A stretch of 44,180 bases of DNA, from positions 1 through 44,180 of the IMG/VR virus record IMGVR_UViG_3300045733_000310; one strand, written 5' to 3'. How positions within the stretch are numbered: position 1 is the stretch's first letter; each line of letters opens with the position of its first letter. Positions 8,090 to 44,180 of this stretch are shown here, in pieces. The DNA is from a virus. The notes below the pieces were generated by a model. That model did not search any database and was not told the DNA's origin. It saw nothing but the letters and a program-made list of their open reading frames with translations. Both the position numbers and the translations under genes were made by a program.

Positions 8090-8125
8090 GATACTTAGCT
8101 TTATTATTTATTTAAAATGACAAAT

Positions 8126-10579: not shown

Positions 10580-10580
10580 T

Positions 10581-11066: not shown

Positions 11067-11067
11067 A

Positions 11068-12849: not shown

Positions 12850-12922
12850 AAAGTCTTTTACTTTTATGTACGTATTTAATTATTAAAGGTTACAATTTGC
12901 GGTTGCATAAATTATTTAATTT

Positions 12923-17962: not shown

Positions 17963-17974
17963 ATATACTAATAA

Positions 17975-19864: not shown

Positions 19865-19865
19865 G

Positions 19866-20048: not shown

Positions 20049-20057
20049 ATATATATA

Positions 20058-22830: not shown

Positions 22831-22841
22831 TATTTTACTGT

Positions 22842-22875
22842 TTAAAACAAGAAAAGCGGGCTGTTACACCCGCCC
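22842..22875 (-). terminator. Intrinsic terminator after the 133-aa decoration-like gene
   Basis: On the minus strand a GC-rich hairpin (5-bp GCGGG/CCCGC core, flanked by more G and C) is followed by a tract of T residues broken by C and G (TTTTCTTGTTTT). It lies 28 bases downstream of the 22904 stop and just before the fibre genes. Confidence 0.75.
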
Positions 22876-22903
22876 ATTCTTGACCATTTATACTAAATAT
22901 TAC

Positions 22904-23305: not shown

Positions 23306-23313
23306 ATTAATTT

Positions 23314-23319
23314 CCTCCT
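23314..23319 (-). promoter_or_regulatory. Strong Shine-Dalgarno for the decoration-like gene
   Basis: The minus strand reads AGGAGG ending eight bases before the ATG at 23305. Bacteroidota genes rarely use this signal, so this gene stands out in translation strength. Confidence 0.65.
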
Positions 23320-23323
23320 ATAA

Positions 23324-24382: not shown

Positions 24383-24401
24383 ATCTATTTAATTTTTAAA
24401 T

Positions 24402-25115: not shown

Positions 25116-26014
25116 TACATTGTATCTCCTTTACGTTTTGGTCTAAGTGGTCTAAATACATCCTCTTCGTCTACCTCTTCAACAATAGTTTTTTCTTTTA
25201 AATCATCATAAAACCCCTTTGAATCATCATGAAATTTTACATCTGATTCTACTGCAGGAGTAGCTATATAACCTTTAGAATCTATTGTCTGCATCACAGA
25301 TATTAATATATCCTGATTTTTAGGATTCTCTAAAAACTCTATGGCTTCGCTCATAGTCCTACCTATAACTTCAGAGCCATACCTATAAATATTTTTAGCT
25401 CTTCTTATTATATTCATAGAGATTGCACGTTCAACTGTAACCTCTGTATCCCTACGAAGATTGTTTACCCATCTATTTATGAAAGCTTGAGGATTAGCTT
25501 CTACTATATCAAACAAATTACTTTCTGCTACCTCTGCTTCCATGCCATCTGCATTGTGACCAAATAATCTTAAACACTTCCTTATCTCTTCTGCGGATAA
25601 ACGATCAAACTCTTTCATTGCTTCACGCCTAGTTTTGTTAATAAGATTATTCTTTTTAGCTTCTTCTTCCTTATTTATTAACAAAAAATGTGCACTAGCC
25701 TTACGTTCAAAAATTGACGTTTTAACCCTTTTGTGATTCTTCAAAAACAAATATCTTAGTTCATCATTAGGATCTTCTAAATTCAAATATACATCTGTTG
25801 AATATGTACGTACAAAGAAATTCTTCCAAAATGGTGAATTCCTTGTTAAATCATTGCCTAATATTCCACTAAGTCTTTTTTCATCATCTGGAGTAAGACC
25901 TGTATAAATCATACCAGACCTTGTGTAATATGGCCCAATATCTTCATAACAGTTTCTATATCTAATTTTGCCTGACCAATTATCCATTTTAATTGGTCGT
26001 AATATTGCTATCAT
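25115..26014 (-). CDS. Capsid-adjacent structural protein, helical
   Basis: A 299-residue protein. It opens with a beta region, with a GMIYTGLTPDDEKRLSGIL segment near residues 34 to 52. A long Arg/Lys/Glu-rich helical middle follows (about 100 to 240) and the tail is acidic, then basic (VDEEDVFRPLRPKRKGD). It is the first gene after the capsid terminator. I do not recognise the family. Position suggests a head-tail joining or internal head protein. Confidence 0.5.
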   Translation of the reverse strand: MIAILRPIKMDNWSGKIRYRNCYEDIGPYYTRSGMIYTGLTPDDEKRLSGILGNDLTRNSPFWKNFFVRTYSTDVYLNLEDPNDELRYLFLKNHKRVKTSIFERKASAHFLLINKEEEAKKNNLINKTRREAMKEFDRLSAEEIRKCLRLFGHNADGMEAEVAESNLFDIVEANPQAFINRWVNNLRRDTEVTVERAISMNIIRRAKNIYRYGSEVIGRTMSEAIEFLENPKNQDILISVMQTIDSKGYIATPAVESDVKFHDDSKGFYDDLKEKTIVEEVDEEDVFRPLRPKRKGDTM

Positions 26015-26034
26015 AATTCCTCGTTTTAAACGGT

Positions 26035-26094
26035 TTAAAAAATTAGGTTAAGAGTGGATGGCTAACCAGTAGCCAACCACCCTACACTTAACCT
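26035..26094 (-). terminator. Long terminator hairpin after the major capsid gene
   Basis: An interrupted hairpin with outer arms AGGTTAAG/CTTAACCT and an inner stem containing GTGG/CCAC and TGGCTA/TAGCCA. On the minus strand it is followed by a run of Ts. It lies 15 bases downstream of the capsid stop. It could terminate most transcripts or act as a 3' stabilising stem that raises capsid mRNA levels relative to downstream genes. Confidence 0.8.
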
Positions 26095-26108
26095 AAAACT
26101 AATACTTA

Positions 26109-27578
26109 TTATTCTGCATCGCAGTATAACATTCCACAAGAGGTAGGATCATCAAGCATGACACCCTGTTCTGACAGGAAGTTAACCTGATAACTATCTT
26201 TTGTGTTTGACCTTAAAGTGGTAATATTTTTAGCATGTCCCTGACCAGGAGCAACAGCACCTGCAGTATGCCACATTACCATCTCACGATCTTTACGAAC
26301 AACCTTACGTATATTGGACTCACCATCTTTCATTCCAATGTTAAGGAATATCATCTTGTAAGACTCAAGTGGTTTACCAGTTATCGGATGAAGTTTCCTA
26401 TTACGAATAGGATCATCTAACAATGATAAATGCTTAAGTGTAAGTTCAATACCATTAAGACCTTTGTATGTCGTGAATTGACCACCCAAAGTAAGTTCCT
26501 GACCTGAGCCAGTTACAAAATAGGAATGATCCATAAGGGTGTACCCTGATGCTTTATCTCTCAATACTCTATCAAACTCCCGCATAGCCATTTCACCGGC
26601 AAGAGCAATAAATTTGCGCTCACCAAATCCACGGATATTAAACGAAAGGTCTGAAAGATACGTATCAAGCAAGTCCAAAGTCAGAGTCGTATAAGACTTC
26701 ATATTAGCAGGAGCTATCTGTTGAAGAAGTCCAGCGCCAATATATACAGGACGACCGTTAGTCCCAATAAGACTTACAGTACCATCCGCATTAGCATTAT
26801 ACTTAGAATACATTGTCATGTAATCTACTCTTTCATACCACTGACGAAGGGCAACCCACTCTTGATAAGGAGCCCAGTATTTAGTAGTTTTCTTAGTTCC
26901 TGGTTCACGCATCTCGATAACCATTACTGAAGAATAAGCATCCCCAGTGATGTCATAGGTAAGACGCATAGTCGTAAGGTGATTCCTAAGCATAAACGGT
27001 GTTTGATAATTCACGATATCTGCCTCATCACTACCTTCTTCGTATGCACTACCAACTCTAGATACCTGTTTACCAGCAGCTAATTCAGTTGGAGGAACAA
27101 AAGATGCAGCCTGGCCATCAGCCATAACTACTGTATAAACCCACTCATTACCATCCTGATACGGCTCAGATACTATACGAACCTGATATTCTTTATCATC
27201 AAATTCAATAATAGCACCAGGACCGAACCATTTGTCTGACAACCAAAGAGTAATAGGAGCACCATTCAAACCAGGAGCATCTGTAGCAGCGATGGTTGTG
27301 CCATCGATCTTAGCGTCCCTGATAGTAACAGCACGTTCTGATTCAATCATAACACGCCATTCGTACTGCCTATTCTCTATTGTCATAACGTTACCCATAC
27401 CATTGGTAATATAATCGATAACGCTTCCTTGATTGAAACGACCCATTATATATGACAATACAGGTGATACTTCATGAGGTCTAGTAAGTAGTGTATTAGC
27501 CAGCATCCTCTCGTCTACCAGGTCTGAAAACCACTTGGTACGATAAAGTTGCAGTTTATTTAATACATTATTTTCCAT
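26109..27578 (-). CDS. Major capsid protein (crAss-like type)
   Basis: A 489-residue protein. Its length, position after portal and scaffold, and C-terminal pattern (KVVRKDREMVMWHTAGAV, then a stretch ending DDPTSCGMLYCD) match the crAss-like HK97-fold major capsid protein as I know it. The N-terminal 50 residues (NVLNKLQLYRTKWFSDLVDE) would form the N-arm. FNIRGFGERKFIALAGEMAM lies in the core of the fold. The gene is followed by a strong terminator hairpin, which fits heavy expression. The family is recalled and was not searched. Confidence 0.8.
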   Translation of the reverse strand: MENNVLNKLQLYRTKWFSDLVDERMLANTLLTRPHEVSPVLSYIMGRFNQGSVIDYITNGMGNVMTIENRQYEWRVMIESERAVTIRDAKIDGTTIAATDAPGLNGAPITLWLSDKWFGPGAIIEFDDKEYQVRIVSEPYQDGNEWVYTVVMADGQAASFVPPTELAAGKQVSRVGSAYEEGSDEADIVNYQTPFMLRNHLTTMRLTYDITGDAYSSVMVIEMREPGTKKTTKYWAPYQEWVALRQWYERVDYMTMYSKYNANADGTVSLIGTNGRPVYIGAGLLQQIAPANMKSYTTLTLDLLDTYLSDLSFNIRGFGERKFIALAGEMAMREFDRVLRDKASGYTLMDHSYFVTGSGQELTLGGQFTTYKGLNGIELTLKHLSLLDDPIRNRKLHPITGKPLESYKMIFLNIGMKDGESNIRKVVRKDREMVMWHTAGAVAPGQGHAKNITTLRSNTKDSYQVNFLSEQGVMLDDPTSCGMLYCDAE

Positions 27579-27601
27579 AATAACCTACAATAAATTAATA
27601 A

Positions 27602-28798
27602 TTATACTTTGTTTAATAAATGTTTACTTAAGGAGCCTAATAGATCAGAGTCTGAGCTTTCCTCTGGGGTTCCTGAATTTTTGGATCTCTTCCCTTTACT
27701 AGCTTTTATTTTCTGATGAAACTCTTTGTAGGCATCTGAAGATCCTCTCTTCTTAGCTTCGTCTATTAAAGAGTCCCCCTTTTTAGTAAAATAAGCCGAT
27801 TCAATCAAGTTCTTAATATCAGACATATAATCTTGCTGATACTTAGTTAAACCATTTGGATCAGGCTTAAATATGTAATCCAACAGTTCATCTTTTTCCC
27901 TGTTAGATATCTTAACCCCCCGAACACTTTCGAGAGACCTTATATTCTTTTGTACGTTGTCATAGAACATTTGTTGCTTAATTCTATTGTCTTTGCTAAA
28001 ATTCTCCTGTTCTTCTAATAGCTTTTGTTGCTGTTCTGATTTGTATTCTTTTAACAATTCTACAGCATCTTCAGCCTCTTCTTGCAACGTTTCAGACTTC
28101 TCGTACCTATCAATAGCCTTTGTTATCTTGTTATCGTCATAGCCTTTAGTCTTGAGTAACTCCTTGATAACAGTTCTTTGATTAGACTCCCTAGTTAAAT
28201 CTAGACTATCATAGTCTATACCAGTAGGTCCACCATATACTTCCTTAAAGAATGTGTCCATAGAACCACCATTCTTTACATATTCATCAAGTCTCTTAAC
28301 AACTTCACTGTGATACCTAGGTTTAGAGTTCTCCTCTACAACAACCTTCATATAGTCTACAACATCTTTTATAGACTCGAATTTATCTTCGTCATCTAAT
28401 TCCCAACCTAATTCCTCAGCAAGTCTGTCTTTTAAAAATGAGGTAACTTCAGTCTCTAACTCTGTATCTACCTCCTCGTCCATATCTTCATCCTTGGAAG
28501 GTGTTTTAACCTTTGGTGTTTCCTCTTCTTCTTCCTCAGGCTCAACTGATTTCTTAGTTGGAACTTTAGTCTTAGGTTTTACCTCGACCTCTTCTTCCTC
28601 TTCATCGACATCTTTATCGATCGTTTCTTCATCCAGATCCTCTTCAACATCATCTTTAAGATCCTCTGGGTCAACGTATGGGATTTCACTATCTGCGTCA
28701 TTTTTCTTAATGATATTACTATCACCTAACAAACTCTTAGATAGGGCTTCAAATCCACCAAATACGTCTGGGGCTTCTATTGTTTCTTTCTTAGCCAT
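27602..28798 (-). CDS. Head scaffold-like protein
   Basis: A 398-residue, highly charged protein. Residues about 45 to 110 are extremely acidic, with Glu/Asp runs alternating with Lys-Pro-Lys. The rest is helical, Gln/Lys/Glu rich (LLKEYKSEQQQKLLEEQEN), and the C-terminus is basic and Ser-rich (KGKRSKNSGTPEESSDSDLL). Acidic helical proteins directly between portal and capsid genes are typically assembly scaffolds. The call is from composition and position; no motif proves it. Confidence 0.65.
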   Translation of the reverse strand: MAKKETIEAPDVFGGFEALSKSLLGDSNIIKKNDADSEIPYVDPEDLKDDVEEDLDEETIDKDVDEEEEEVEVKPKTKVPTKKSVEPEEEEEETPKVKTPSKDEDMDEEVDTELETEVTSFLKDRLAEELGWELDDEDKFESIKDVVDYMKVVVEENSKPRYHSEVVKRLDEYVKNGGSMDTFFKEVYGGPTGIDYDSLDLTRESNQRTVIKELLKTKGYDDNKITKAIDRYEKSETLQEEAEDAVELLKEYKSEQQQKLLEEQENFSKDNRIKQQMFYDNVQKNIRSLESVRGVKISNREKDELLDYIFKPDPNGLTKYQQDYMSDIKNLIESAYFTKKGDSLIDEAKKRGSSDAYKEFHQKIKASKGKRSKNSGTPEESSDSDLLGSLSKHLLNKV

Positions 28799-28800
28799 AA

Positions 28801-31137
28801 TTATTTATTATTAGCGCTAGCAACCGGTCGGTTAGCTTGCTTCCTTTTTATTTCAATTTCTTGCTGTTTTTGGTCCTCAGCTTTTTTATTCTTCCTAACT
28901 GTTTCTTTTAACTGCTCATCTTTAATTCTAGCATCTTCTCTCTGCTTCTCTATTTTCAATTGCCAATCCATCATAGAATCAGCTACACCATCCTGATTGT
29001 TATCTTCACCAGCAGTAGCAGCTTGCTTAATCATTTCAACTTGAATCATTGTTTCAGACCTACGAATAGAGTCTTCTTCTCTAAGTCTAAGATCTTCCAT
29101 CTTCAATTCATTTTCTATCTGTATAGCATCAGATTCCATCTTAGCTTGCTGAGATTGTAATTGTTGTCTACGTTCTTCTATCTCACCAAGTTTAAGTTTA
29201 ATCTGAGATAAATTCTCTGAAGATAAAATCTCTGCAGCTTCCATAAGTGTAGCACCATTCTGCATAGCTGGTTGAAGTAATGTTTTAATTGCTTCAATAT
29301 CCCTATCCTGTTTAGTGGTATCACCTACAAATACATCCATGTCTGCATATAAGAAATCATCCTCTACAGTCAAAAATATACGTTCAGAATCATTCAGTAC
29401 GTAGTGTATAGACTTGTTAGGATGCTCTTTCCAAACATGTTTAGCCACATTAAGTAGCATAGTTATAGCATTACGCTTAGCCTGTTTGTGACACCAGAAC
29501 AAAGGTTCAGTGATATGAGACGACTGTACAACAGCTCTCTCCACATTACCAACCAATTCTGTTCTAGATATCTGCCCTGCTCTTTGCTTACTAACTCCAG
29601 ATATCTCACCAATCATATCTTCTATCTTAACCATAAGACCGATATAACCAGCCATGACATCTTGCATACTTAAATCTACAGCAGTGATTTGATTAAACGC
29701 AGAAGGTTTACCACCCTCACGACCAGGTATATCCCAACCTTCATCATATGGATTTATAAAGTTAATACCAGCAGCTGTTAAATAATGCATCCACTGTTCT
29801 ACAGATATACCAAGACCTCTAGGTATTTGCGTTAAGTCCATAGTAAGAACTTTACCTTTATCTCTAGCCAAAGCTAACTCTAAACGATACCATATTATGA
29901 TATACATGTATTGCAATGGTTTCATTAAACCAACTAAAGACTTAGGCTTAGAATTTATATTATTGTATACTACACCACAGTATGGAAGTTTCCTAGAGGA
30001 TAGATTATCAATAGAAGTATGTTGATATTCAACAGGTTCTATACCTATAAATATATCATCCCCTATTTTATAACCTTCCCAAACCTCAGGTATCCAGTCC
30101 CATTCAAGAGTTTCACCTTCTGACTTTTTATACTCTTCACCAACTATAGTATTCTGAACTTCACCCTTTTCGTCTGTGAATGTAAGAAACCCAATCTTTT
30201 TGTACGATTTCCACACACCGTGATAAACGTCAACAAGATTTATATCTGTATTATCATACAAATATCTCTTACTAACTTTATCTCTAAATGCGATTACATC
30301 ATCTACGTTACTAGTGCCCATGCTAGATTGCGCATGGCCTTCGCCAGCATAGTCTAACATTCTATCTAGGTCCTTCTCTTCCATTATATCAAAGAACCTA
30401 TCGTATATAGAAGCTGGACTCATTTGCATATACCTAACAAACCAATCTCCATCCTCTATAAAATCTACGTCTGGATCCTTATCATAATCACAATTCAATG
30501 GATTAACCCTTTCTAACACAGGTTCACCGTTAATAGAAGACACATAATATATCTCTTCTGTTGAAATTAATCCGTCTCTCCACCCCTTTAAAAACTCATT
30601 ATCCAAATTCAATTTTTGCCTTAAATAATTCAAAGCATGATATGCTGTTTCCTCAGCTATAGTTTTATAATTATACTTTAGATATTTTTCGATCTCTTTT
30701 GGAGTGACAGGTTCACCTTGTTCATCCTTAGTAATGCCTACAAATTGTGATATATACTGCATTAACATCTCCTTTTTCTTATCTTGGAGTTGTGTGACTA
30801 CATCTGAATTAGTTTGTATAACCCTTAAGTCAAAAGGTCGTTTAGATTCTTCCCCTATCAAGAGATCAATCTTCGGCCGAATGATATTGAAGTCTTGAGT
30901 TTTTGCTGGGAAACCATCTTCTACTTTGAAAGGATTAGTTACATATTTCAAATCCTTTTCATCGTATTCACTATTATATAAACCATACCAGGTAGCCATT
31001 TCTGATTTCCTTTTTATACCCATCCCAACACCAGCTGATGACCTAGAGATAACTGCTCGGAGAGACTCCTCACGCCACTCCTTAGTCTTCTTAACTAGTG
31101 ATGTTTTTTGTACAGGAAAATTTGACTTATCTACCAT
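28801..31137 (-). CDS. Portal protein
   Basis: A 778-residue protein at the canonical site between TerL and the scaffold. The N-terminus (about 1 to 110) has the clip-like region with NPFKVEDGFPAKTQDFNIIRPKIDLLIGEE. The middle contains a long wing and stem (SRKLPYCGVVYNNINSKPKS, then GLMKPLQYMYIIIWYRLELA). The C-terminal 150 residues form a long Gln/Glu/Arg-rich coiled coil, as seen in podoviral barrel portals. The ring acts as the DNA entry and exit channel of the capsid and the docking point for terminase and the adaptor rings. Size fits crAss-like portals. Confidence 0.85.
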   Translation of the reverse strand: MVDKSNFPVQKTSLVKKTKEWREESLRAVISRSSAGVGMGIKRKSEMATWYGLYNSEYDEKDLKYVTNPFKVEDGFPAKTQDFNIIRPKIDLLIGEESKRPFDLRVIQTNSDVVTQLQDKKKEMLMQYISQFVGITKDEQGEPVTPKEIEKYLKYNYKTIAEETAYHALNYLRQKLNLDNEFLKGWRDGLISTEEIYYVSSINGEPVLERVNPLNCDYDKDPDVDFIEDGDWFVRYMQMSPASIYDRFFDIMEEKDLDRMLDYAGEGHAQSSMGTSNVDDVIAFRDKVSKRYLYDNTDINLVDVYHGVWKSYKKIGFLTFTDEKGEVQNTIVGEEYKKSEGETLEWDWIPEVWEGYKIGDDIFIGIEPVEYQHTSIDNLSSRKLPYCGVVYNNINSKPKSLVGLMKPLQYMYIIIWYRLELALARDKGKVLTMDLTQIPRGLGISVEQWMHYLTAAGINFINPYDEGWDIPGREGGKPSAFNQITAVDLSMQDVMAGYIGLMVKIEDMIGEISGVSKQRAGQISRTELVGNVERAVVQSSHITEPLFWCHKQAKRNAITMLLNVAKHVWKEHPNKSIHYVLNDSERIFLTVEDDFLYADMDVFVGDTTKQDRDIEAIKTLLQPAMQNGATLMEAAEILSSENLSQIKLKLGEIEERRQQLQSQQAKMESDAIQIENELKMEDLRLREEDSIRRSETMIQVEMIKQAATAGEDNNQDGVADSMMDWQLKIEKQREDARIKDEQLKETVRKNKKAEDQKQQEIEIKRKQANRPVASANNK

Positions 31138-31155
31138 TCTTGTAAATTTAATTAA

Positions 31156-33171
31156 TTAAATATCTCGATATAAACCATCTTTAAACAAATTTGTTCTTGA
31201 AAATTCTTTATTCTTTTTCACAACAACAGTGTATAACTCCCTCAAATAAATCATTACTTGAATCATTGCCATAACCCTGTCGAAGTTACCGTTATCATTA
31301 TACGCTATTAATTCCTCTAATAACGCTTCTGAAAATATCTTTGTTAGATTCTTATGGCCGGGGGCGTACTCTTCATTTAGCCAATCCTTGAGTAAACCTA
31401 TACCCCAAATCTTTAAAGGTTTAGTCATATGGCAACCCTTAAGACGTTTAACTGCCATTACCCCTACTATATCCCTAATAATATCAGGTTGATCAGCAAG
31501 TAAATACTCACATTTCTTATGTAAAAAGTAATCAAATATGCCTTTGTTTTGATTTTCATACATAATTTTTGCATGAAAATACAAGGCTAATAATCTAACT
31601 TTTTCATAGAAAGTTTCAGCTTTATCTGGCCTACCTGTATATTCTGCTACTGGTATATCATAATAAGATTCAAAATTTTGAAACCTTTTATACACAATAA
31701 CAGACCCAAGAGAATCAGTAGTAGAAGAATCATAGTCATACGAGTCACAACCCATCACATATAAACCAAATGGTATATCATCTGGTGGATGTTCCCATAT
31801 AACAATGGCACCTGATGGGTCGTCGTTAGACGATACTCTGTACTTTGTTAAATCTTTGTACTTAGTGTTGATTTCCCATTTGACGACCCCATCCTTATCG
31901 AAAAATAGATCCCCTACTTGTTTGAATTCCTTCAACTTTTTGGAGTTTCTGATTTCAGCTAGGTGCCTAATCAAATCTTTCTTAGGAAAGATATTACCAG
32001 AAATCTGCAATGTAGCCTCCATAGGATTGAAAGGTCTCTCTGCTATGTACCTATCAATCGAAGACTTATCACTAGAATTCTCTATTACTTTATCACGTTG
32101 CCTTATAGCCCAAATTTGAGTAATATGTACATTCGAATTACCGTTTTGGTCCATAAAAGGTATGCCTTGCTCATCATGACCCTTCATGTTAAAATACTCT
32201 GGAACAAAAAACCCACAGGGTCTGCCATCTAAAGCACCATCATCCCATATATTTTGTATAGGCAGAGCGTTATACGCCTCTGGTTCATAAAACAAATCTT
32301 TAAGACCAGTATAATCAGCCTCTTCTGTACCACCAGTACCATAGGCTATCATCAAACCGAAGGCTACGTTACCATCTTCTACAGATGGTCTAGCAACTTG
32401 CCAAGCTTCTTTCAATCCTGGAAACTTACCAGCCTCTTCCCATAGTATAAGTTTACCACGTTTACCTCTAGCCTTCTGAGGATCGTTCTTTAAACTCACA
32501 CCAATTATCTCTGAACCCCAACCTTGCTCAGCTGATATGTTATAATCGTCCCCAGATTTCATAATAAAAGATGCACGTTTATGCATCACTGTATCTTTCT
32601 TCTGACGACGTTTACCCCAAGCAGTATTCATATCAATAAAGCTCATCATATCCCAAGCCTTATTTAGTATACCATCCTTAGTTAAAAATTCTGCTTCACA
32701 TGCTACAGCATAGGATTTAGACTTAGGTATACAATAAAAATTCCTACATAACATAGAGGCACCTTTATAAGAAAAACCTGCCCCACGTTTTTTAATAGTA
32801 ACTAAATGTTTACCCTTTTCCTCAGCCTCTTCTATAGCTTCAAAATATGCACGATCATAATCAAAGAAATTAGGGAACCCTTCTATACGTCTAACTATAC
32901 GTCTAGTCTTACCATCTGGACCTGTCATGTCTCGCTCTTCAGTTTTTATAATCCTACTATAGTTCAGATAGAAATAGAAATACCCGGATATATATTCCCC
33001 ATCTTCTGTGGTATACCCGAATATACAACGACGAAGCTCCTCATCCCAGTACTTCATGTATGCTGTAGTCCCGATGGGAGCGTTCGTATAATAACCGTAT
33101 GTGTCGAAGTTTATTGCTGATTGTCTAAATTTTGCAGTATTGTCGCAAAACTTAACGTTGATTGTATACAT
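31156..33171 (-). CDS. terL: Terminase large subunit
   Basis: A 671-residue packaging motor. The ATPase contains the variant Walker A KKRGAGFSYKGAS at residues 127 to 139 and Walker B LILWEEAG at 241 to 248 with the catalytic Glu. The C-terminal RNase H-like nuclease has its first acidic strand at YVMGCDSYDYDSS (Asp476) and the second at KIMYENQNKG (Glu539). It binds the portal to cut and translocate genomic DNA. The portal gene follows after 18 bases. Walker A lacks the usual Gly-Lys-Ser/Thr end; the lysine is displaced, as in some crAss-like terminases. Confidence 0.9.
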   Translation of the reverse strand: MYTINVKFCDNTAKFRQSAINFDTYGYYTNAPIGTTAYMKYWDEELRRCIFGYTTEDGEYISGYFYFYLNYSRIIKTEERDMTGPDGKTRRIVRRIEGFPNFFDYDRAYFEAIEEAEEKGKHLVTIKKRGAGFSYKGASMLCRNFYCIPKSKSYAVACEAEFLTKDGILNKAWDMMSFIDMNTAWGKRRQKKDTVMHKRASFIMKSGDDYNISAEQGWGSEIIGVSLKNDPQKARGKRGKLILWEEAGKFPGLKEAWQVARPSVEDGNVAFGLMIAYGTGGTEEADYTGLKDLFYEPEAYNALPIQNIWDDGALDGRPCGFFVPEYFNMKGHDEQGIPFMDQNGNSNVHITQIWAIRQRDKVIENSSDKSSIDRYIAERPFNPMEATLQISGNIFPKKDLIRHLAEIRNSKKLKEFKQVGDLFFDKDGVVKWEINTKYKDLTKYRVSSNDDPSGAIVIWEHPPDDIPFGLYVMGCDSYDYDSSTTDSLGSVIVYKRFQNFESYYDIPVAEYTGRPDKAETFYEKVRLLALYFHAKIMYENQNKGIFDYFLHKKCEYLLADQPDIIRDIVGVMAVKRLKGCHMTKPLKIWGIGLLKDWLNEEYAPGHKNLTKIFSEALLEELIAYNDNGNFDRVMAMIQVMIYLRELYTVVVKKNKEFSRTNLFKDGLYRDI

Positions 33172-33176
33172 TAATT

Positions 33177-33743
33177 TTAGTCTAGTCCGTAATCAAAATC
33201 TTCCCTGGGTACTTCATATAACCCAACATCACCACCTCCTCTAACAACATGAGATTCAGTCTGTTCCTTTTTAACCATCTCCTCTAGCATCCCTAAGGAC
33301 TTCACTATGCCAGCAACCTCTTTAAGGTTAGATGATAACTCCCTAGATGAATACATAGGCTTGCCATCTTTACCAAGCAAAGAAAAATCTATAGTATCAA
33401 AATACTCTGCAAGTTTGTCTGCTGCACGTTTAGCTGATCTTAGTAACCTAGAGTTAGTAGTCTGTTTTAACTCCTGATATTTCTCAATACCTTTTAAAAC
33501 TGCATCATCAATTTGCCAATCTTCGCCCATAAAATCCTTCTTTAGGACGATATCTCGCTCAATATCTTTATAAGCCCTGTAAGGATTATCGCTAGATTCG
33601 TCACACAAGAATATTATATAAGATATCTCTTTAGTGGCAGTCCCTTTAAGTTTGCCCTTATCACGATCCCACAGAAATTTAAATTCTGGTATGGTTAATG
33701 ATTGAGGATTTATTACTACCTTGTTGTTTACGATATCGAACAC
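33177..33743 (-). CDS. Terminase-adjacent protein, possible small terminase subunit
   Basis: A 188-residue, mainly helical protein. An N-terminal region with SLTIPEFKFLWDRDKG is followed by helices with NPYRAYKDIERDIV and a long central coil (LLRSAKRAADKLAEYF). The C-terminus is Gly-rich then acidic (RGGGDVGLYEVPRED), an arrangement seen in small terminases. It lies 5 bases upstream of TerL. No helix-turn-helix is certain by eye. The start at 33743 lies within a GIY-YIG-like fragment in another frame. Confidence 0.55.
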   Translation of the reverse strand: MFDIVNNKVVINPQSLTIPEFKFLWDRDKGKLKGTATKEISYIIFLCDESSDNPYRAYKDIERDIVLKKDFMGEDWQIDDAVLKGIEKYQELKQTTNSRLLRSAKRAADKLAEYFDTIDFSLLGKDGKPMYSSRELSSNLKEVAGIVKSLGMLEEMVKKEQTESHVVRGGGDVGLYEVPREDFDYGLD

Positions 33744-33900
33744 TTTTATGATACACCTTCGCTTTCTTTTTTATATTTCCAAATAAATCCATAGTGGAAC
33801 CAATGTATTTTTTATTATCGTATGTATTTATTATAATATAAACACCTGGCTTATTTCTTAAATATCTTTTGTACTTTGATGGATCGTCGAATACTTTCAT
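33679..33900 (-). pseudogene. Truncated GIY-YIG endonuclease fragment
   Basis: A 73-residue frame whose residues 15 to 40 read KPGVYIIINTYDNKKYIGST, the signature strands of the GIY-YIG nuclease domain. After the YIGST the catalytic Arg helix is missing. The frame runs into unrelated sequence and overlaps the terminase-adjacent gene by 65 bases. Intact GIY-YIG homing endonucleases exceed 150 residues, so this is probably a decayed remnant, though expression of the small domain cannot be excluded. It sits between a tiny membrane protein gene and the terminase block. Confidence 0.65.
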
Positions 33901-34018
33901 ATTTATACCTTTCCAATTCTTTATCTTTGTAATACTCTACTGCATAATCCCAACCTATTAACGTTAGTAATTGAAACTCTATGAGTATTATTGGCCAAAT
34001 TGATTCTATTATATCCAT
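33851..34018 (-). CDS. Small membrane protein
   Basis: A 55-residue frame with one N-terminal hydrophobic segment (IWPIILIEFQLLTLIGW) and a charged C-terminal tail (YYKDKELERYKYESIRRS). Its ATG overlaps the stop of the upstream gene as TAATG, the coupling pattern seen elsewhere in this arm, which supports translation. It overlaps the start of the GIY-YIG fragment by 50 bases. Function unknown. Confidence 0.5.
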   Translation of the reverse strand: MDIIESIWPIILIEFQLLTLIGWDYAVEYYKDKELERYKYESIRRSIKVQKIFKK

Positions 34019-34413
34019 TACTTGTTATATTCTTCCCAACCATTCCAGATCAGATTTATCTTATCATTATCTCCATCTTCCAAAGCTTGCTCTATAATAG
34101 ATTTAGCTGAATCAGCGTCCTTTAGCATAAAACCTAACGTAGCTGCCATCATGATTGTTACCTCATCTATCTCATCTAATAATAACTTAGCCCTAGTTTG
34201 TGTCCTCATACCTTTATTTTTATAGTTGCCCTTTTGACTAAATGCCCCTAAATACATAACCCTCAACCCTTCTTCTTTATCAGGTGAGGTTACTAAATAT
34301 TTTAAATAAGCAAACGGAGAGTCTACAATTGCTTTGCAAACTCGTGGGTCTAAAGAATTGGCCGTAGCCAAAGCCTTAATGTAATTATGCTGCCGTTGGT
34401 TTAACAAAGCCAC
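34018..34413 (-). CDS. Hypothetical helical protein
   Basis: A 131-residue, fully helical protein opening with NQRQHNYIKALATANSL and containing KLLLDEIDEVTIMMAATLGF. No domain recognised. It overlaps the upstream 78-aa gene by 29 bases and couples to the 55-aa membrane protein downstream. Its position between a DNA-binding-like protein and the terminase block suggests a role at the replication-to-packaging switch, which is speculative. Confidence 0.5.
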   Translation of the reverse strand: MALLNQRQHNYIKALATANSLDPRVCKAIVDSPFAYLKYLVTSPDKEEGLRVMYLGAFSQKGNYKNKGMRTQTRAKLLLDEIDEVTIMMAATLGFMLKDADSAKSIIEQALEDGDNDKINLIWNGWEEYNK

Positions 34414-34621
34414 CTACTTTTTTACTAGATAAATTATCAAGAATGTGAACAGTTTCAAGTCTACGGTCCCTAATAAATATAGGTATACTAAAAAGCCTTA
34501 TTGTATAATACTTTTCAGTTACCTCATTATATATATTATGCTCTTTGTCTAACCAATCTATGGTACTATACGTGTTTACCTGAATATGTACCAACGAGTT
34601 TTTCACCTGCTTTATTGTCAT
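34385..34621 (-). CDS. Small hypothetical protein
   Basis: A 78-residue protein with mixed beta strands (YYTIRLFSIPIFIRDRRL) and a basic C-terminus (SSKKVGGFVKPTAA). It overlaps both neighbours (56 bases with the winged-helix gene, 29 with the helical protein). The overlap with the winged-helix gene is unusually long for this arm, so a later Met may be the true start. No family recognised. Confidence 0.45.
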   Translation of the reverse strand: MTIKQVKNSLVHIQVNTYSTIDWLDKEHNIYNEVTEKYYTIRLFSIPIFIRDRRLETVHILDNLSSKKVGGFVKPTAA

Positions 34622-34994
34622 TTTGCCTTAGTATTTTTAATATGAAGTTAACCTTAACCTCATACTTATTAGTTTCCTCATCGTACTCTACGACCGGTTT
34701 TATATTGCTATTGATAGACCACCTATTGTCGGAGTTCTTCACAATCAGGCCTTTGGCCTTTATTGTGTGAAGATACCGACTAAGGTTGGCTTCACTTATG
34801 CCTAGCTTAGCCTTGATGACTGACCTTACGTTCCTATTGTTGACATCGTCTGCATACCCAGGTTGTCCTGCATCTGCCATTAATAAATATGAGAAAACTT
34901 CAGCCTCCCGATTAGAAAGCTGAAGTACCCCATTTACTATATTAACGAAATCAAAATAGAACTGATCCCTATTCGTTTTCTTTATCAGATCCAT
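34566..34994 (-). CDS. Winged-helix DNA-binding protein
   Basis: A 142-residue protein with a clear helix-turn-helix/winged-helix block. LSNREAEVFSYLLMADAG (about 26 to 43) is the first helix pair. RSVIKAKLGISEANLSRYLHTIKAKGLIVKN (about 57 to 87) is the HTH plus wing start, in the style of MarR or replication-initiator winged helices. RWSINSNIKPVVEYDEET continues the wing. It probably acts as a transcription regulator or DNA-binding accessory protein of the late arm. The target is unknown. Confidence 0.65.
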   Translation of the reverse strand: MDLIKKTNRDQFYFDFVNIVNGVLQLSNREAEVFSYLLMADAGQPGYADDVNNRNVRSVIKAKLGISEANLSRYLHTIKAKGLIVKNSDNRWSINSNIKPVVEYDEETNKYEVKVNFILKILRQNDNKAGEKLVGTYSGKHV

Positions 34995-35601
34995 TACCTT
35001 CTATTTCATAAAACACAGTAGTCTCTATACCACAGTTCTCACAATTAAGTACTAACTTAGTTTTGTCAGATACTGGGAAGAACAACCCATGCTTAATTTT
35101 ATGAATAAAGTTTTCATGTTGGCATAACCCACAGCTAAACATCAGTATACCTTCATCAGGTTTATAGTCTACTGGTACCTGAGCCTCTTTAACTTCCTCG
35201 GGAACAGGTGAACCCGGTGCTAATGTAAACTCTTCCTTGTAAGAGGTTGATTTGTCACTTTGAAGAACTTCTTCCTTAGGTGCTTCTTCTTCAGGAACAC
35301 TGCTTTCAACAGTCTCCGCCTCACTTGTGGTTTCTGTAACTTTGTCATTATTACCATCATCAAGTTTAAACCATGGTCTAAAATACTCAGGTTCATTGTC
35401 CTGTACTAAATACGGGTCTATTGCTATTGCATGACCTGAATAATAATATTCCCCATCACCTATTTCTTCTTCACCTTCTACATTAATATATTTGCCTGAC
35501 CCTGAGTCAAACTTCAGTATTGTACCTTTATCTAACCCTAGGAAAGACTTAGTTACTTCGACTGGTATAAATAAATTCCCATGACTATTTTGCCGTATCA
35601 T
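34969..35601 (-). CDS. Zinc-ribbon protein with acidic linker
   Basis: A 210-residue protein from the Met-Ile-Arg-Gln start at 35601, which I prefer to the upstream Met at 35634 because the latter lies further inside the preceding gene. The N-terminal 55 residues resemble a small beta-barrel (GNLFIPVEVTKSFLGLDKG). A Glu/Ser/Thr/Pro-rich acidic linker of about 80 residues follows. The C-terminus holds a zinc ribbon with CGLCQHE and CENCG pairs. This suggests a DNA- or RNA polymerase-binding adaptor, but there is no family match. Confidence 0.5.
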   Translation of the reverse strand: MIRQNSHGNLFIPVEVTKSFLGLDKGTILKFDSGSGKYINVEGEEEIGDGEYYYSGHAIAIDPYLVQDNEPEYFRPWFKLDDGNNDKVTETTSEAETVESSVPEEEAPKEEVLQSDKSTSYKEEFTLAPGSPVPEEVKEAQVPVDYKPDEGILMFSCGLCQHENFIHKIKHGLFFPVSDKTKLVLNCENCGIETTVFYEIEGNGSDKENE

Positions 35602-35869
35602 CTGCTTTATGTGTTTTAAGTGTTTTTTTAACAAACCACCCGAATGGTTTAAATAATTCCCTAACTATTGCTGTAAAATAAAAACGACGTAGTTGTTCAC
35701 TAACAAACCAATAATTATATTCAACACCAACATGAGCCCTGTCAATATTAATGTCTACTTTATACTGTGTTGCCCCAGTAAACTTGTCTACTCGTTCTTT
35801 TACAACCTTGCCTTTAACTAACCCATGGTTAGTAAAGACATATACTTTTTTACCTATCTCTGCTTTCAT
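35585..35869 (-). CDS. Small beta-barrel-like protein
   Basis: A 94-residue protein. Residues 1 to 65 are beta-rich (KKVYVFTNHGLVKGKVVKER, then YKVDINIDRAHVGVEYNYWF), in the manner of small SH3/Tudor-like barrels. The rest is a basic helix (FGWFVKKTLKTHKADD). It lies 8 bases downstream of the small basic gene and overlaps the zinc-ribbon start by 17 bases. Function unknown. Confidence 0.45.
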   Translation of the reverse strand: MKAEIGKKVYVFTNHGLVKGKVVKERVDKFTGATQYKVDINIDRAHVGVEYNYWFVSEQLRRFYFTAIVRELFKPFGWFVKKTLKTHKADDTAK

Positions 35870-35877
35870 ATTTTTAA

Positions 35878-36033
35878 TTAGTCTAATATACCTTTTAGTC
35901 TGCGTAAACGCCTGAGTGCACGTTTCAACTTAGGACTTAAGTTTTTACGTTTAAACTCACCGTCTACATTTACTCTTACTACTTTTATGCGCTTTGGTTT
36001 AATTCTACAAAGCCTTACTAATCTTATCTTCAT
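35878..36033 (-). CDS. Very basic 51-residue protein
   Basis: The frame on the minus strand encodes 51 residues of which more than a third are Arg or Lys (RLCRIKPKRIKVVRVNVD near the start, RALRRLRRLKGIL at the end). No acidic block balances the charge. Direct nucleic-acid binding is likely. It lies 6 bases after the small membrane protein stop and 8 bases before the 94-aa gene start. Confidence 0.5.
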   Translation of the reverse strand: MKIRLVRLCRIKPKRIKVVRVNVDGEFKRKNLSPKLKRALRRLRRLKGILD

Positions 36034-36039
36034 CACTTG

Positions 36040-36153
36040 TTATTTTTTAATTCGTTTAATTAACAACACCCCTATGATAACAATAACTACTGCAGCTGCA
36101 GCGTATATTGCAAACCCTATAATTAGTTTATTGTTTATTAAGTCTGTGTCCAT
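36040..36153 (-). CDS. 37-residue single-span membrane protein
   Basis: The frame encodes 37 residues with a long hydrophobic helix (GFAIYAAAAVVIVIIGVLL) followed by a Lys/Arg tail, giving N-out, C-in topology. The tail ends six bases before the basic protein's start. Function unknown; small phage membrane peptides often affect host envelope or superinfection. Confidence 0.5.
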   Translation of the reverse strand: MDTDLINNKLIIGFAIYAAAAVVIVIIGVLLIKRIKK

Positions 36154-36231
36154 AGTCTTTAGACTTGGTTGCCCATATAAGTATTACGTACGAATTATAA
36201 AAAGGTTACAATTATAACTATAATAAATAGC

Positions 36232-36260
36232 AAAAGGCTACCCCATTGCCAGGATAGCCT
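36232..36260 (-). terminator. Terminator-like hairpin
   Basis: On the minus strand AGGCTATCC pairs with GGGGTAGCCT-type sequence (6 perfect pairs plus G-T and two G-C) and is followed directly by TTTTG. It lies about 50 bases downstream of the 18-aa gene and before the membrane peptide gene. Confidence 0.6.
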
Positions 36261-36268
36261 CATTGCAA

Positions 36269-36294
36269 GCCCCACCTGATTAGGCAGGAGGAGC
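36269..36294 (-). other. Second hairpin downstream of the 18-aa gene
   Basis: A stem-loop on the minus strand of five plus four pairs separated by one mismatch, around a six-base loop, just upstream of the terminator-like hairpin. The two hairpins stand in tandem directly after the 18-aa gene and may be a combined 3' structure. Confidence 0.5.
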
Positions 36295-36311
36295 CCTTTC
36301 ACCAATAACTA

Positions 36312-36368
36312 TTATTTCTTCTTTGAAGGTTTCTTAGTTGATTTTTTACCACCACCACACTTTGCCAT
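36312..36368 (-). CDS. 18-residue lysine-rich peptide with a strong start
   Basis: The minus strand encodes MAKCGGGKKSTKKPSKKK and a stop. It has one of the best ribosome binding sites in the window (GGGAGG five bases before the ATG), which a chance frame would not have. Eight of eighteen residues are Lys, plus a Cys-Gly-Gly-Gly element. Two hairpins follow at once, giving a compact mini-transcription unit. A basic, possibly DNA-condensing or membrane-active peptide is likely; no family can be assigned at this length. Confidence 0.6.
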   Translation of the reverse strand: MAKCGGGKKSTKKPSKKK

Positions 36369-36373
36369 AGTCA

Positions 36374-36379
36374 CCTCCC
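36374..36379 (-). promoter_or_regulatory. Strong Shine-Dalgarno for the 18-residue gene
   Basis: The minus strand reads GGGAGG with a five-base spacer to the ATG at 36368. This is stronger than nearly all other gene starts in the window. Confidence 0.7.
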
Positions 36380-36412
36380 TTTTAATTGTTACACATTTAT
36401 TTATATAGAGCC

Positions 36413-36811
36413 CTATTCTGTTGCCTTGCCGTCAAATTTAACATCACCTTTTTCGGCTGCCTGTTTCGTTACATTTATAACACCATCCTTATGATTAGGA
36501 GGACCATAAATTGTATACATTTTTAATTCTACTGCTGTATCAATATTTATTACATTGTGTTTTGCCCCAGCAGGTACGATTATAACATCACCATTTTTAA
36601 CAGCGTGCTCAACCCCATCTATAATACATTTGCCAACCCCTTCTTCGAACCTAAAGAACTGGTCTACATTAGCATGAACTTCTTCACCAATGTCTTCACC
36701 AGGTTTTAAATTCATTAATACAAGTTGGAGATGTTTACCTGTATACAACACTTTCCTGAAATTCTCATTTGCTAAAGTGTCTTTTTCTATATTACTATTA
36801 AACCCTTGCAT
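36413..36811 (-). CDS. Cupin-domain protein
   Basis: A 132-residue single-domain cupin. Cupin motif 1 is visible as LKPGEDIGEEVHANVDQFFR (His46, with Asp50 and Gln51 in the metal positions), and GKCIIDG closes the strand. Motif 2 is NGDVIIVPAGAKHNVIN (His85). This is the mannose-6-phosphate isomerase-like small cupin pattern, which binds a divalent metal and often a sugar or small acid. Such genes are uncommon in the structural arm of phages. It lies 12 bases downstream of the coiled-coil gene. The biochemical function is unknown. Confidence 0.75.
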   Translation of the reverse strand: MQGFNSNIEKDTLANENFRKVLYTGKHLQLVLMNLKPGEDIGEEVHANVDQFFRFEEGVGKCIIDGVEHAVKNGDVIIVPAGAKHNVINIDTAVELKMYTIYGPPNHKDGVINVTKQAAEKGDVKFDGKATE

Positions 36812-36823
36812 AATACTTTAATA

Positions 36824-37246
36824 TTAGTACCCTGATGGACCACGCATGTTCGGATACCGTACTGGAAAATTAGATTCAAATTCGTTAAGTTCAACGTCAG
36901 GTTCTACTACAGGTTCCTCAGTAGGTTCAACTTCAGGTTTACCCTCATTTAACTCAGCTGTCCTAGCTGCCTTAGAAACTTTAAATCTTTCTATATCCCT
37001 AGCTTCTTCTTTAGCCCTAAGTTCAGCATCTTCTTTAGCATCTATATTACCTTCTTCAATAACTGCCTGAAGTTCTACTATTTCAGCTTTAAGTGCCTTG
37101 GCCTTATCGTCTAGTTTAACATCTGATAGAAGCCCTTCGAGTAATTTAACATACTCTACAAACTTAGTTATCAGGTTGTTCCTATTGTCATTGCCAACAG
37201 GACCTTTAAGTGTATTAACTTGTTTCATACTTTTAAATTTTTTCAT
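36824..37246 (-). CDS. Coiled-coil, Glu/Pro-rich protein
   Basis: A 140-residue protein. A basic start leads to a long heptad helix (about 25 to 90, FVEYVKLLEGLLSDVKLDD then AELRAKEEARDIERFKVSK), then a Glu/Pro/Val-rich acidic stretch, and a conserved-looking end (NFPVRYPNMRGPSGY). Its start may be the second Met (residue 7). A capsid- or packaging-linked role is possible from context only. Confidence 0.5.
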   Translation of the reverse strand: MKKFKSMKQVNTLKGPVGNDNRNNLITKFVEYVKLLEGLLSDVKLDDKAKALKAEIVELQAVIEEGNIDAKEDAELRAKEEARDIERFKVSKAARTAELNEGKPEVEPTEEPVVEPDVELNEFESNFPVRYPNMRGPSGY

Positions 37247-37260
37247 TGTACAATTTTTAA

Positions 37261-37353
37261 TTACATTTTTATTTCATTCACCATGGTTTTGGAGTTGGTT
37301 TTACTTGATTTATTAACTTTAAGATATAAGATGACCCCACCAGTAACTGCCAT
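37261..37353 (-). CDS. Possible 30-residue peptide
   Basis: The minus strand encodes 30 residues with a short hydrophobic start (MAVTGGVILYLKVN) and a Lys/Ser/Asn-rich tail. There is no good ribosome binding site. It fits the upstream end of the coiled-coil gene with a gap of 14 bases. Weakly supported. Confidence 0.3.
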   Translation of the reverse strand: MAVTGGVILYLKVNKSSKTNSKTMVNEIKM

Positions 37354-37389
37354 GTTTCTAGTAATTGCTGTTTTTCAGTTGATGAATAA

Positions 37390-37565
37390 TTACTTGGTAT
37401 CTAGCCCTAAACCTACTATTCTTCTTACTTCGCAGTTGTAGTCGTAATCATCACCTAACCTATTCGAGGTTTCCACATTATATATGCTTACTGCCCCGCC
37501 GGGTCACTAGCCGTAGTTATCAAGCTTACGTCCCCCTAGTGAGTAATCGGTTTTAGGTTCTCCAT
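37390..37565 (-). other. Coding-like region split by an amber codon and a -1 shift
   Basis: From the ATG at 37565 the frame encodes MENLKPITH and then a TAG, followed in the same frame by GDVSLITTASDPAGQ and a TAA. A -1 shift at a run of four Gs (GGCGGGGCAG) opens a frame ending VRRIVGLGLDTK at 37390. The joined text has protein-like composition. It could be a decayed small gene, a recoded gene, or coincidence within a structured RNA. Confidence 0.3.
37480..37545 (-). other. GC-rich structured island B
   Basis: In a very AT-rich region this stretch carries GCCCCGCC (plus strand 37493 to 37500). A perfect 7-bp inverted repeat TCACTAG/CTAGTGA (37504 to 37510 and 37536 to 37542) encloses a smaller CGTA/TACG stem. 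It is related to island A at 38290 to 38360. Possible regulatory RNA or leader. Confidence 0.45.
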
Positions 37566-37610
37566 TAGTAATACGTATAAGTTACGTATTTGTTACACTA
37601 ATTAGCAAAA

Positions 37611-38015
37611 TTATTTTTGGTCACTAATAGCTTTTGTTGTATCAGGTACCCTTTCTATTGCTATAACTTCAAAATTCTTTAACACTGATACACCTTTGAT
37701 AAGGTCAAAATCTGATAGGTTTGATACCTTATATATAATAGTATCACCAACTTTAAGCCTTGGTTCATTCTTTGCTATTTGAAGAACTATAGCACGTTGA
37801 TAAGTATGATTAACATTATATATCTTCTGTTTCATCATCTCATGAGGTATTTCATCCTCCATGGGATTAAGTTTAGCAGCTTTAACTGCCTCTAAGTCTG
37901 GTTCCTTTGTGACTGATTCATAAGTCCTTAATTTAAGCGGGTGGACTAATACACGCCCGTCTAGTGGTTCAAGTGTTGAACACTTTACTATCAAATTATC
38001 TATTATTCTACTCAT
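37611..38015 (-). CDS. GroES-like co-chaperonin
   Basis: A 134-residue protein from the Met-Ser-Arg start at 38015; I reject the upstream Met at 38066, which would overlap the previous gene. The GroES pattern is visible: LEPLDGRVLVHPLK (about 15 to 28, like 'plgDRVlvkp'), QRAIVLQIAKNEPRLKVGDT (the 'GiVvavG...vkvGD' block), IIYKVSN, and a final VLKNFEVIAIERV (the 'il-e-dIlav' end). A mobile-loop-like insert lies between the first two blocks, about 45 residues and longer than in bacterial GroES, as in T4 gp31. It would cap the host GroEL to fold phage proteins such as the capsid. One base separates it from the upstream gene. Confidence 0.65.
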   Translation of the reverse strand: MSRIIDNLIVKCSTLEPLDGRVLVHPLKLRTYESVTKEPDLEAVKAAKLNPMEDEIPHEMMKQKIYNVNHTYQRAIVLQIAKNEPRLKVGDTIIYKVSNLSDFDLIKGVSVLKNFEVIAIERVPDTTKAISDQK

Positions 38016-38016
38016 T

Positions 38017-38214
38017 TTATTTTGCTTTAGTTTTAATTTTCCTGTCAGTACATAGTTTGCAATCATTGCATAATACTATATGTACTGGTATTTGACATTC
38101 TTTTTTATTCATTTCTTTAAGTTCTTTAACAAACTCTTTATGTGCCTTTAAATAAGCCTTATGATATTGTTTCATAATAGCTTTATACTGTTTATTAGCT
38201 TGTTTTTTTGACAT
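38017..38214 (-). CDS. Small lysine-rich protein with two cysteine pairs
   Basis: A 65-residue protein. The first 40 residues are a basic helix (QYKAIMKQYHKAYLKAHKE). The C-terminus has CQIPVHIVLCNDCKLC, possibly a zinc site with four Cys. It is the first gene of the left arm, directly after the divergent region, and so may be the first product of that transcript. The stop is one base before the GroES-like start. Confidence 0.5.
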   Translation of the reverse strand: MSKKQANKQYKAIMKQYHKAYLKAHKEFVKELKEMNKKECQIPVHIVLCNDCKLCTDRKIKTKAK

Positions 38215-38394
38215 ATTTATATATGTTTATACATATATTACGTAGATAATGATAAAAAGTTACAGTATACTATAAAAAACTGTGTATATAATGCCCCGCC
38301 AACATTGCCTCAATCAAACTGCCCCCTTAGCCTTCGGCCAGGGCGGGATCCCCAGCCAATTTGAATATAAATTATTAAATAAAACGACAAAAAA
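38215..38394. promoter_or_regulatory. Divergent intergenic region between the two arms
   Basis: This 180-base spacer separates the minus-strand and plus-strand arms, so it should hold the promoters for both. It contains a perfect 8-bp inverted repeat ATATATGT-ttat-ACATATAT (38219 to 38238), beside the first minus-strand start. A very AT-rich stretch and GC-rich island A (38290 to 38360) complete it. No canonical Bacteroides -33/-7 pair stands out, so the promoters may be phage-specific. Confidence 0.6.
38290..38360. other. GC-rich structured island A
   Basis: It contains GCCCCGCC (38293 to 38300), a CCCGCC/GGCGGG pairing (38295 to 38300 with 38342 to 38347), a nested GCC/GGC hairpin with a three-base loop, and a GGGATCCC palindrome. 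It shares the GCCCCGCC and CCCCC(T)TAG elements with island B in the same orientation. It lies in the 5' leader of the plus-strand arm. Confidence 0.5.
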
Positions 38395-43598: not shown

Positions 43599-43778
43599 AT
43601 GGCAAAAATAGGTAATAATACAGTAGAATGTTGGAATTGTGGCAGATGCTACACTAAAGACAATTTTGAGGTATGTCCTGAATGTGGTGAATATTCTGAA
43701 AACATACTTCCATTTAATGATAGTGATATTGAAGAGGATGATTTTAATGATGATTATGAAATTCCATTTGATCCATGA
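43599..43778 (+). CDS. Zinc-ribbon mini-protein with acidic tail
   Basis: The frame encodes 59 residues: a zinc ribbon CWNCGRCYT...CPECG in the first 32 residues, then an extremely acidic tail (NDSDIEEDDFNDDYE). The stop overlaps the sigma factor's start (ATGA), so the two are translationally coupled. A ribbon plus acidic tail coupled to a sigma factor suggests a regulator or anti-sigma-like partner, which is an inference. Confidence 0.55.
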   Translation: MAKIGNNTVECWNCGRCYTKDNFEVCPECGEYSENILPFNDSDIEEDDFNDDYEIPFDP

Positions 43779-44180
43779 CACCATTAGTAATAAACTATAA
43801 TTTTATACAGCATATACTGAATGAAAATGCAGAATCATATGGAGAAATATTAGAGAAATACTATGACGATATACTTCGTCATATTACTAAGATTGTCCAT
43901 AATAATGAAGATGCCCAGGATTTAACAAATGAAACATTCTGTAGGGTATATTTAAATCTTAGTTCATTTAAGCCTAATTACAAATTCAGTTCATGGCTTT
44001 ATAGGATAGCAACTAACATAGCAATTGATTTCTTACGAAAAGAGAAATTAAGGGCTAATATCAAAGTTGCATCTGATGAAGTAGCACGTACTGATATCGT
44101 TGATGAATCATCTGAAGATATTGAAATAGGTAAAGGACAGTATCGTTCAGCATTAAGAGAGGCTATAAGTCAATTAAGGG
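43775..44180 (+). CDS. ECF-type RNA polymerase sigma factor (C-terminus beyond window)
   Basis: The frame is open to the window end (135 codons). Residues about 20 to 92 match sigma-70 region 2: YYDDILRHITKIVHNNEDAQ, then DLTNETFCRVYLNLSSFKPN, then FSSWLYRIATNIAIDFLRKE. The DAQDLTNETF block is the core-binding and -10-recognition signature of ECF sigma factors. Region 4 begins near the edge (ALREAISQLR). It would direct host RNA polymerase to phage promoters. Its ATG overlaps the stop of the zinc-ribbon gene. Confidence 0.9.
   Translation, partial: MTPLVINYNFIQHILNENAESYGEILEKYYDDILRHITKIVHNNEDAQDLTNETFCRVYLNLSSFKPNYKFSSWLYRIATNIAIDFLRKEKLRANIKVASDEVARTDIVDESSEDIEIGKGQYRSALREAISQLR

Follow-up and report, generated by a model that had tools for sequence, protein, structure and literature searches.

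A phage-encoded sigma factor, of a SigW-like type shared with the host, probably directs host RNA polymerase to TGTAAC-N16-CGTA promoters on the left arm of the genome fragment analysed here (the window, meaning the whole stretch of 44,180 nucleotides). We favor this reading because of the motif itself, its strand and placement, its counterparts in relatives and the opposite promoters of relatives that lack the sigma; recognition of the motif by the phage sigma, action through the host polymerase and timing are what we infer from the sequences. In the proposed mechanism, the sigma would be made from the right arm of a Crassvirales phage of Bacteroidota and would join the host core RNA polymerase. 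Polymerase carrying the phage sigma would then start left-arm transcription at internal promoters and at some three promoters close to the head of the arm, and structural and lysis genes would be switched on. Expression of the sigma itself must be started by another polymerase or sigma, because no copy of the motif lies on the right-arm strand of the window. Three of the four predicted promoters head virus-particle genes, a hint of how part of the Crassvirales, which are among the most abundant human gut phages, may switch to particle production.

We assign the window to an environmental Crassvirales phage, of which it is a fragment, on the basis of PHROGs and synteny: the portal, major head protein and terminase are of the crAss-like type and stand in the conserved order, and these three together with one further virion protein match PHROGs. 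The structural arm occupies the minus strand, with the sigma on the divergent plus (right) arm. The portal is ~47–54% identical to those of Suoliviridae genomes, and several environmental contigs are closer, among them IMGVR_UViG_3300009009_000011 (hereafter G002), whose portal and major head protein are 74% and 91% identical to those of the window. G002 is the closest relative with a complete sigma gene, a syntenic gene of 184 aa with both region 2 and region 4 (PF08281, E 1e-15) whose product is 44% identical to the window sigma over 135 aa. The features discussed below are collected in Table 1.

Table 1. Coordinates of the predicted promoters and genes in the window
Feature	Position	Strand	Context or basis
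Predicted ECF-type promoter, TGTAAC-N16-CGTA	38239..38264	-	24 bp before ATG (38214) of first left-arm ORF
Predicted ECF-type promoter, TGTAAC-N16-CGTA	37572..37597	-	just after gene 37611-38066
Predicted ECF-type promoter, TGTAAC-N16-CGTA	36185..36210	-	upstream of small membrane ORF (37 codons, by eye)
Predicted ECF-type promoter, TGTAAC-N16-CGTA	12869..12894	-	19 bp before HNH endonuclease gene (12337-12849)
Left arm, structural and packaging genes (proposed sigma targets)	3..38214	-	PHROGs; G002 synteny; portal matches to Suoliviridae
Left-arm terminase	31156-33171	-	PHROGs
Left-arm portal	28801-31137	-	PHROGs; matches to Suoliviridae
Left-arm major head protein	26109-27578	-	PHROGs
Left-arm virion protein	4558-5277	-	PHROGs
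59-aa zinc-ribbon-like protein, CxxC...CxxC, acidic tail ending EIPFDP	43599..43778	+	4-nt overlap with sigma; lineage-specific neighbor
ECF-type (SigW-like) sigma gene, 5' part	43775..44180	+	region 2 complete; region 4 beyond contig end; full-length relative L058 with region 4

The sigma ORF has no stop codon in its 135 codons, and the 44,180-base virus record ends within it. In a Pfam profile search, residues 26–91 match Sigma70_r2 (PF04542) with an E value of 1e-16, and the product scores 65 bits against the NCBIfam sigma70-ECF superfamily model TIGR02937, above its cut-off of 42.9. The first-pass annotation, which had read this frame as sigma-70 region 2 of an ECF sigma, is borne out by both scores, and we class the gene as an ECF-type sigma. 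SigW gives the top raw score among the NCBIfam models, at values below the SigW equivalog cut-offs (TIGR02948, 77 bits versus 243; NF007223, 87 versus 209), and no RsiW-like anti-sigma neighbor was recognized in the window; we therefore describe the predicted product as SigW-like rather than as SigW. The best solved relative is SigW of Bacillus subtilis (PDB 5wuq), which is nearly identical in regions 2.3–2.4 (FSSWLYRIATN/FSTWLYRIATN). The near identity of this segment and the promoter type, TGAAAC/TGTAAC-N16-CGTA, are common to B. subtilis SigW and the SigW-like ECFs of Bacteroidota, although those proteins, unlike the phage sigma, are cellular stress or housekeeping regulators. The window frame stops about where the linker between sigma2 and sigma4 meets region 4. 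The earlier annotation had treated a missing region 4 as grounds for doubt; the frame does end before this region, but only because the contig ends there, and the complete gene of G002 has it, so that its absence from the full-length window gene is unlikely by homology.

The exact motif TGTAAC-N16-CGTA occurs at four sites in the window, compared with 0.02 expected (shuffle mean), and no shuffle reached four. All four lie on the minus, structural strand and outside real genes, the site at 36185 overlapping only a spurious plus-strand ORF. The distance from motif to ORF is 24 and 19 bp in the two clearest cases, the latter ORF being the endonuclease gene, with an HNH match to phrog_2255 (E 7e-9). 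With gaps of 10–22 other than N16, no exact intergenic site was found in either the window or G002. The G002 genome carries three exact sites and one with a single mismatch, and those at 38549, 39398 and 40608 lie where its late arm begins, ordered as in the window. The counterpart of the 38239 site is G002:38549-38574, located 25 bp before the first late-arm gene of G002; that of the 37572 site is G002:39398-39423 (one mismatch), and that of the 36185 site is likely G002:40608-40633, all of these being positional correspondences called from order and flanking genes and not from base-level alignment.

The consensus of B. subtilis SigW is TGAAAC-N16,17-CGTA (PMC2375139), and ECF sigmas have stringent promoter elements and spacing (PMC6411747). 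Because TGTAAC-N16-CGTA was picked with the SigW consensus and the related genomes already in view, finding four sites in the window is not an entirely blind result; the choice of motif made no use of their position, strand or fixed spacing. The first-pass annotation had proposed looking for a shared −35/−10 motif before the left arm, and a SigW-type motif does stand at the head of this arm and is repeated inside it. The link between the sigma and the left arm, which had been offered there as inference, gains a motif at the expected place, while recognition of that motif by the window sigma is the part that we still infer. Downstream of the 37572 promoter, positions 37246-37611 hold no clear minus-strand ORF and might instead encode a leader or small RNA; an Rfam search of this interval matched no family.

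An ECF-type sigma can be regarded as a standard gene in one branch of the Crassvirales. A sigma of ~185 aa is encoded at a conserved place in the Suoliviridae subfamilies Boorivirinae, Uncouvirinae, Loutivirinae, Oafivirinae and Bearivirinae; it is present in each of the 17 Suoliviridae genomes in which this region was inspected, and relatives occur at about 40–49 further IMG/VR loci. The initial remark that few phages carry ECF sigmas is thus wrong for this lineage. Like the window sigma, these genes, annotated as sigma-W (for example, QOR58402.1 in cr118_1), belong to the ECF type, with regions 2 and 4 both found in the aligned proteins, and they come from the same phage order and lie on the arm opposite the structural genes. 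They differ in forming a separate sigma clade, ~22–30% identical to the window sigma as compared with its fragment only, in having an LPF-ending protein upstream and, in some subfamilies, in a GAAC-N16-CGTT promoter in place of TGTAAC-N16-CGTA; the label sigma-W is there a name annotation only. In the Steigviridae phi14:2, crAss001 and cr128, we found no sigma-profile match and no region-4 hit over the cut-off. No paper discussing Crassvirales ECF sigmas was found in the literature searched, and the word "sigma" is absent from the main texts of Yutin et al. 2021 (PMC7886860) and of the crassvirus structural atlas (PMC10172136).

When upstream regions were searched for spaced word pairs with no motif specified beforehand, three sigma-bearing genomes returned AACA-N15-CGTT or GAAC-N16-CGTT. 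The latter was the top pair in three Boorivirinae (10 sites versus 0.15 expected, P 1.5e-15 before correction), with 10 of 10 exact sites non-coding, and this result led to the motif search in the window. In sigma-bearing gut Suoliviridae, GAAC-N16-CGTT is found at the late-arm head and before the holin. GAAC or AAAC-N16-CGTT lies ~85–125 bp before the holin in cr114, cr10, cr50, cr55, cr6, cr4, cr53 and cr60, eight genomes that span Uncouvirinae, Boorivirinae, Bearivirinae and Loutivirinae; at the same place cr118 differs and cr131 shows no visible match, and no such motif was found in the sigma-bearing Oafivirinae. A matrix scan was weak, with little power, outside Boorivirinae and Bearivirinae, and the loose word AAC-N16-CGT was enriched in some genomes only in a gap-shifted whole-genome count. 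Because of these limits, our promoter claims extend only to the holin sites, the window clade and the two subfamilies Boorivirinae and Bearivirinae. In recoded genomes, some seeming N16 hits fell inside a scaffold-like coding sequence (CAACAGGAG...CGTTGTC) and were discounted; in Loutivirinae, the highest-ranking words (GGTTCGA...) were set aside for their resemblance to tRNA T-loops.

Promoter usage appears to be opposite in the sigma-less and sigma-bearing relatives. The Steigviridae show TTG-N20-TAnnTTTG, with 19 sites in crAss001 (9 non-coding), 11 in cr128 (8 non-coding) and 5 in phi14:2 (3 non-coding), and none of these three genomes contains TGTAAC-N16-CGTA. Conversely, TTG-N20-TAnnTTTG is almost absent from the window and from cr10 and cr6. 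In Bacteroides, TTTG/TAnnTTTG is the published promoter read by the primary sigma (PMC7366714). CpG is nearly absent from crAss001 (L194-L198), with an observed/expected ratio of 0.03 versus 0.24–0.98 in the other crAss-like genomes measured, and the lack of a CGT motif in this phage therefore carries no weight; crAss001, and in part cr128, are poor negative controls on account of this depletion, and phi14:2 (0.46) is a fair one.

The window motif is also a promoter type of the host. The 20-base form TTGTAACYTTT-N10-TACGTATAA was found in 79 stretches of bacterial genomes, nearly all of them Bacteroidota. A sigma profile matches 52 of 73 downstream ORFs, nearly all of which are the 287-aa primary sigma gene rpoD, and most of the others look like queA as judged by eye from sequence rather than by profile. 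Among L342-L420, many Flavobacteriaceae carry this form ~45 bp ahead of rpoD, and in Bacteroidales it precedes queA-like genes. These placements suggest ECF control of the host primary sigma gene, and a host SigW-like ECF presumably drives rpoD. A SigW-like ECF, 33–47% identical to the G002 sigma, is present in nine of nine such genomes examined; a peptide-pattern search of bacterial genomes had returned no close relatives of the G002 sigma, and it was a homology search of selected genomes that later brought them out. A tree joins the window sigma to that of G002 (99/98) and places the two as sister to the host SigW-like ECFs (98/96) and apart from the gut Suoliviridae sigmas, with the caveats that the host rows are best hits to the G002 sigma, which favors this grouping, and that the window row is a long branch. 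The topology suggests that the sigma of the window lineage was captured from a host separately.

This overlap with the host gives rise to the main rival of our reading, namely that the conserved host SigW-like ECF itself reads the left-arm promoters, the phage having copied the promoter and its own sigma doing something else or merely adding to the effect. The identity of the window motif with the promoter type before rpoD and queA and the presence of a SigW-like ECF in every such genome examined speak for direct host use. Three contigs (G022, G024 and G025, all fragments) that have several motif copies and gave no hit in a sigma search also count against our reading. Against direct host use stand the sigma-less relatives, in which the motif is missing even though the host of phi14:2 belongs to the Flavobacteriaceae, and the sigma-less contigs G008 and G009, which have no exact site. 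Moreover, the gut Suoliviridae, with their different sigma clade, use CGTT and not CGTA, which would not be expected of a single shared host ECF. On balance we regard direct use of the host ECF as unlikely. The match to the promoter before rpoD could alternatively mean that the phage sigma modulates host genes, such as a host ECF regulon that includes rpoD, rather than phage late genes; since the 44 kb of phage sequence holds four exact sites of its own, all intergenic and on one strand, we consider this very improbable.

Recognition by the phage's own sigma, which we prefer, does not make the motif a private signal of that sigma. Beyond CRASSVIRALES, a 17-base form of the motif was found in 77 stretches of viral contigs. 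In the 148.5-kb phage contig G020 (L325-L332), exact TGTAAC-N16-CGTA sites number 52; they share a single strand and lie a median of 24 bp before an ATG. G026 has 24 exact sites and G021 has 22, and these three genomes show almost no motif at other spacings. Two ECF-like sigma genes each are present in G020 and G026, G021 has a region-2 match and G023 an RpoD-like sigma. Since these sigmas are not close to that of the window in the tree, the motif is better seen as a wider Bacteroidota-type promoter than as the signature of one sigma clade. The G020 promoters lie mostly before small genes at 108–147 kb, with the two ECF-like sigma genes where that region begins, and its host-type TAnnTTTG promoters lie mostly at 57–100 kb. 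Timing may differ between phages, because in G020 the motif marks this run of small genes and not recognizable structural genes.

The zinc-ribbon-like protein encoded just upstream of the sigma would not be needed in the proposed mechanism. Zinc-ribbon profiles match the 59-aa ORF weakly, below all curated cut-offs. The ATGA at which the two frames meet, taken in the first-pass annotation as translational coupling, is a real 4-nt overlap, but such an arrangement is ordinary here: 15 of 53 same-strand neighbors in the window overlap by 1–60 nt, one other pair by exactly 4 nt. Searches of viral contigs, of annotated phages and of 19 related contigs detected no relative of the zinc ribbon, and single-protein scans of viral contigs were likewise empty for the sigma fragment and for a right-arm protein of 300 aa as well as for the zinc ribbon. 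The ORF touching the sigma in G002 is an unrelated 81-aa Cys-containing protein, and the zinc ribbon is no conserved adjacent anti-sigma gene, being absent beside every other phage sigma examined. A dedicated pair, in which the small protein acts as anti-sigma or co-factor, would fit the adjoining, overlapping genes and the existence of zinc-containing anti-sigma factors; given the unrelated occupant of the slot in G002, the missing homologues and the frequency of overlaps, it is very improbable, though conceivable for this one lineage, and the sigma/zinc-ribbon switch proposed at first is unsupported.

The immediate upstream neighbor of the sigma gene in most Suoliviridae belongs to a poorly conserved family, unrelated to the zinc ribbon, with an "lRIa...lnKl" motif and a C-terminal LPF (L064:2391-2771, L067:2441-2923, L098:3492-3896 and about 35 more loci). 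This C-terminal LPF resembles the tip of single-strand binding proteins, and these genomes encode another protein, of ~200 aa, that likewise ends in (D/E)LPF or similar. Homology between the window zinc ribbon and a ~62-aa gene upstream of the Suoliviridae sigma was considered and dropped. Upstream of the sigma in the window are small Cys-containing ORFs (43267-43596 and 42147-42359) that resemble those just upstream of the G002 sigma, sharing CxxxxCG.Y and CPL(E/Q/D)D stretches by eye, and a tRNA-Glu(ttc) gene lies on the same arm at 42575-42648.

Phage-encoded late sigmas are an old idea, exemplified by gp55 of T4 and by gp28 and gp34 of SPO1, and the role proposed here is the same in that a phage sigma redirects host polymerase to late genes. 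Those sigmas recognize other promoters, however, late transcription in T4 depends on gp33 and the sliding clamp, and neither system includes an ECF architecture or a promoter shared with the host. Early genes of phi14:2 are reportedly read by a virion-packaged polymerase; we found no paper describing what drives Crassvirales late genes. Three points appear new in the literature searched: a Crassvirales ECF sigma with a matching set of late promoters, the difference between families with and without the sigma, and the overlap of the phage promoter type with one that precedes host rpoD. A broader scheme is possible, and we advance it tentatively: the Crassvirales would be split between Steigviridae, with late genes on the host primary-sigma promoter, and Suoliviridae plus the window lineage, with their own ECF sigmas and promoters, the window sigma being a captured host SigW-like ECF that places phage late genes and host rpoD in one regulon. 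A phage sigma with a recognizable promoter represents a concrete, testable late switch, and its presence or absence would explain the different promoters of related phages. With the motif in hand, late operons can also be predicted in phages that have not been cultured, and an ECF-type promoter before rpoD in many Flavobacteriaceae is of interest on the host side.

Several other sigma-type sites precede homing endonuclease genes. Homing endonucleases of the HNH, GIY-YIG and endonuclease VII-like kinds repeatedly have a sigma-type promoter directly upstream (cr50 14494-15597 and 27089-27847; cr6 2753-3376 and 38652-39254; and the HNH gene of the window), an arrangement that recalls mobile genes bringing their own late promoter.
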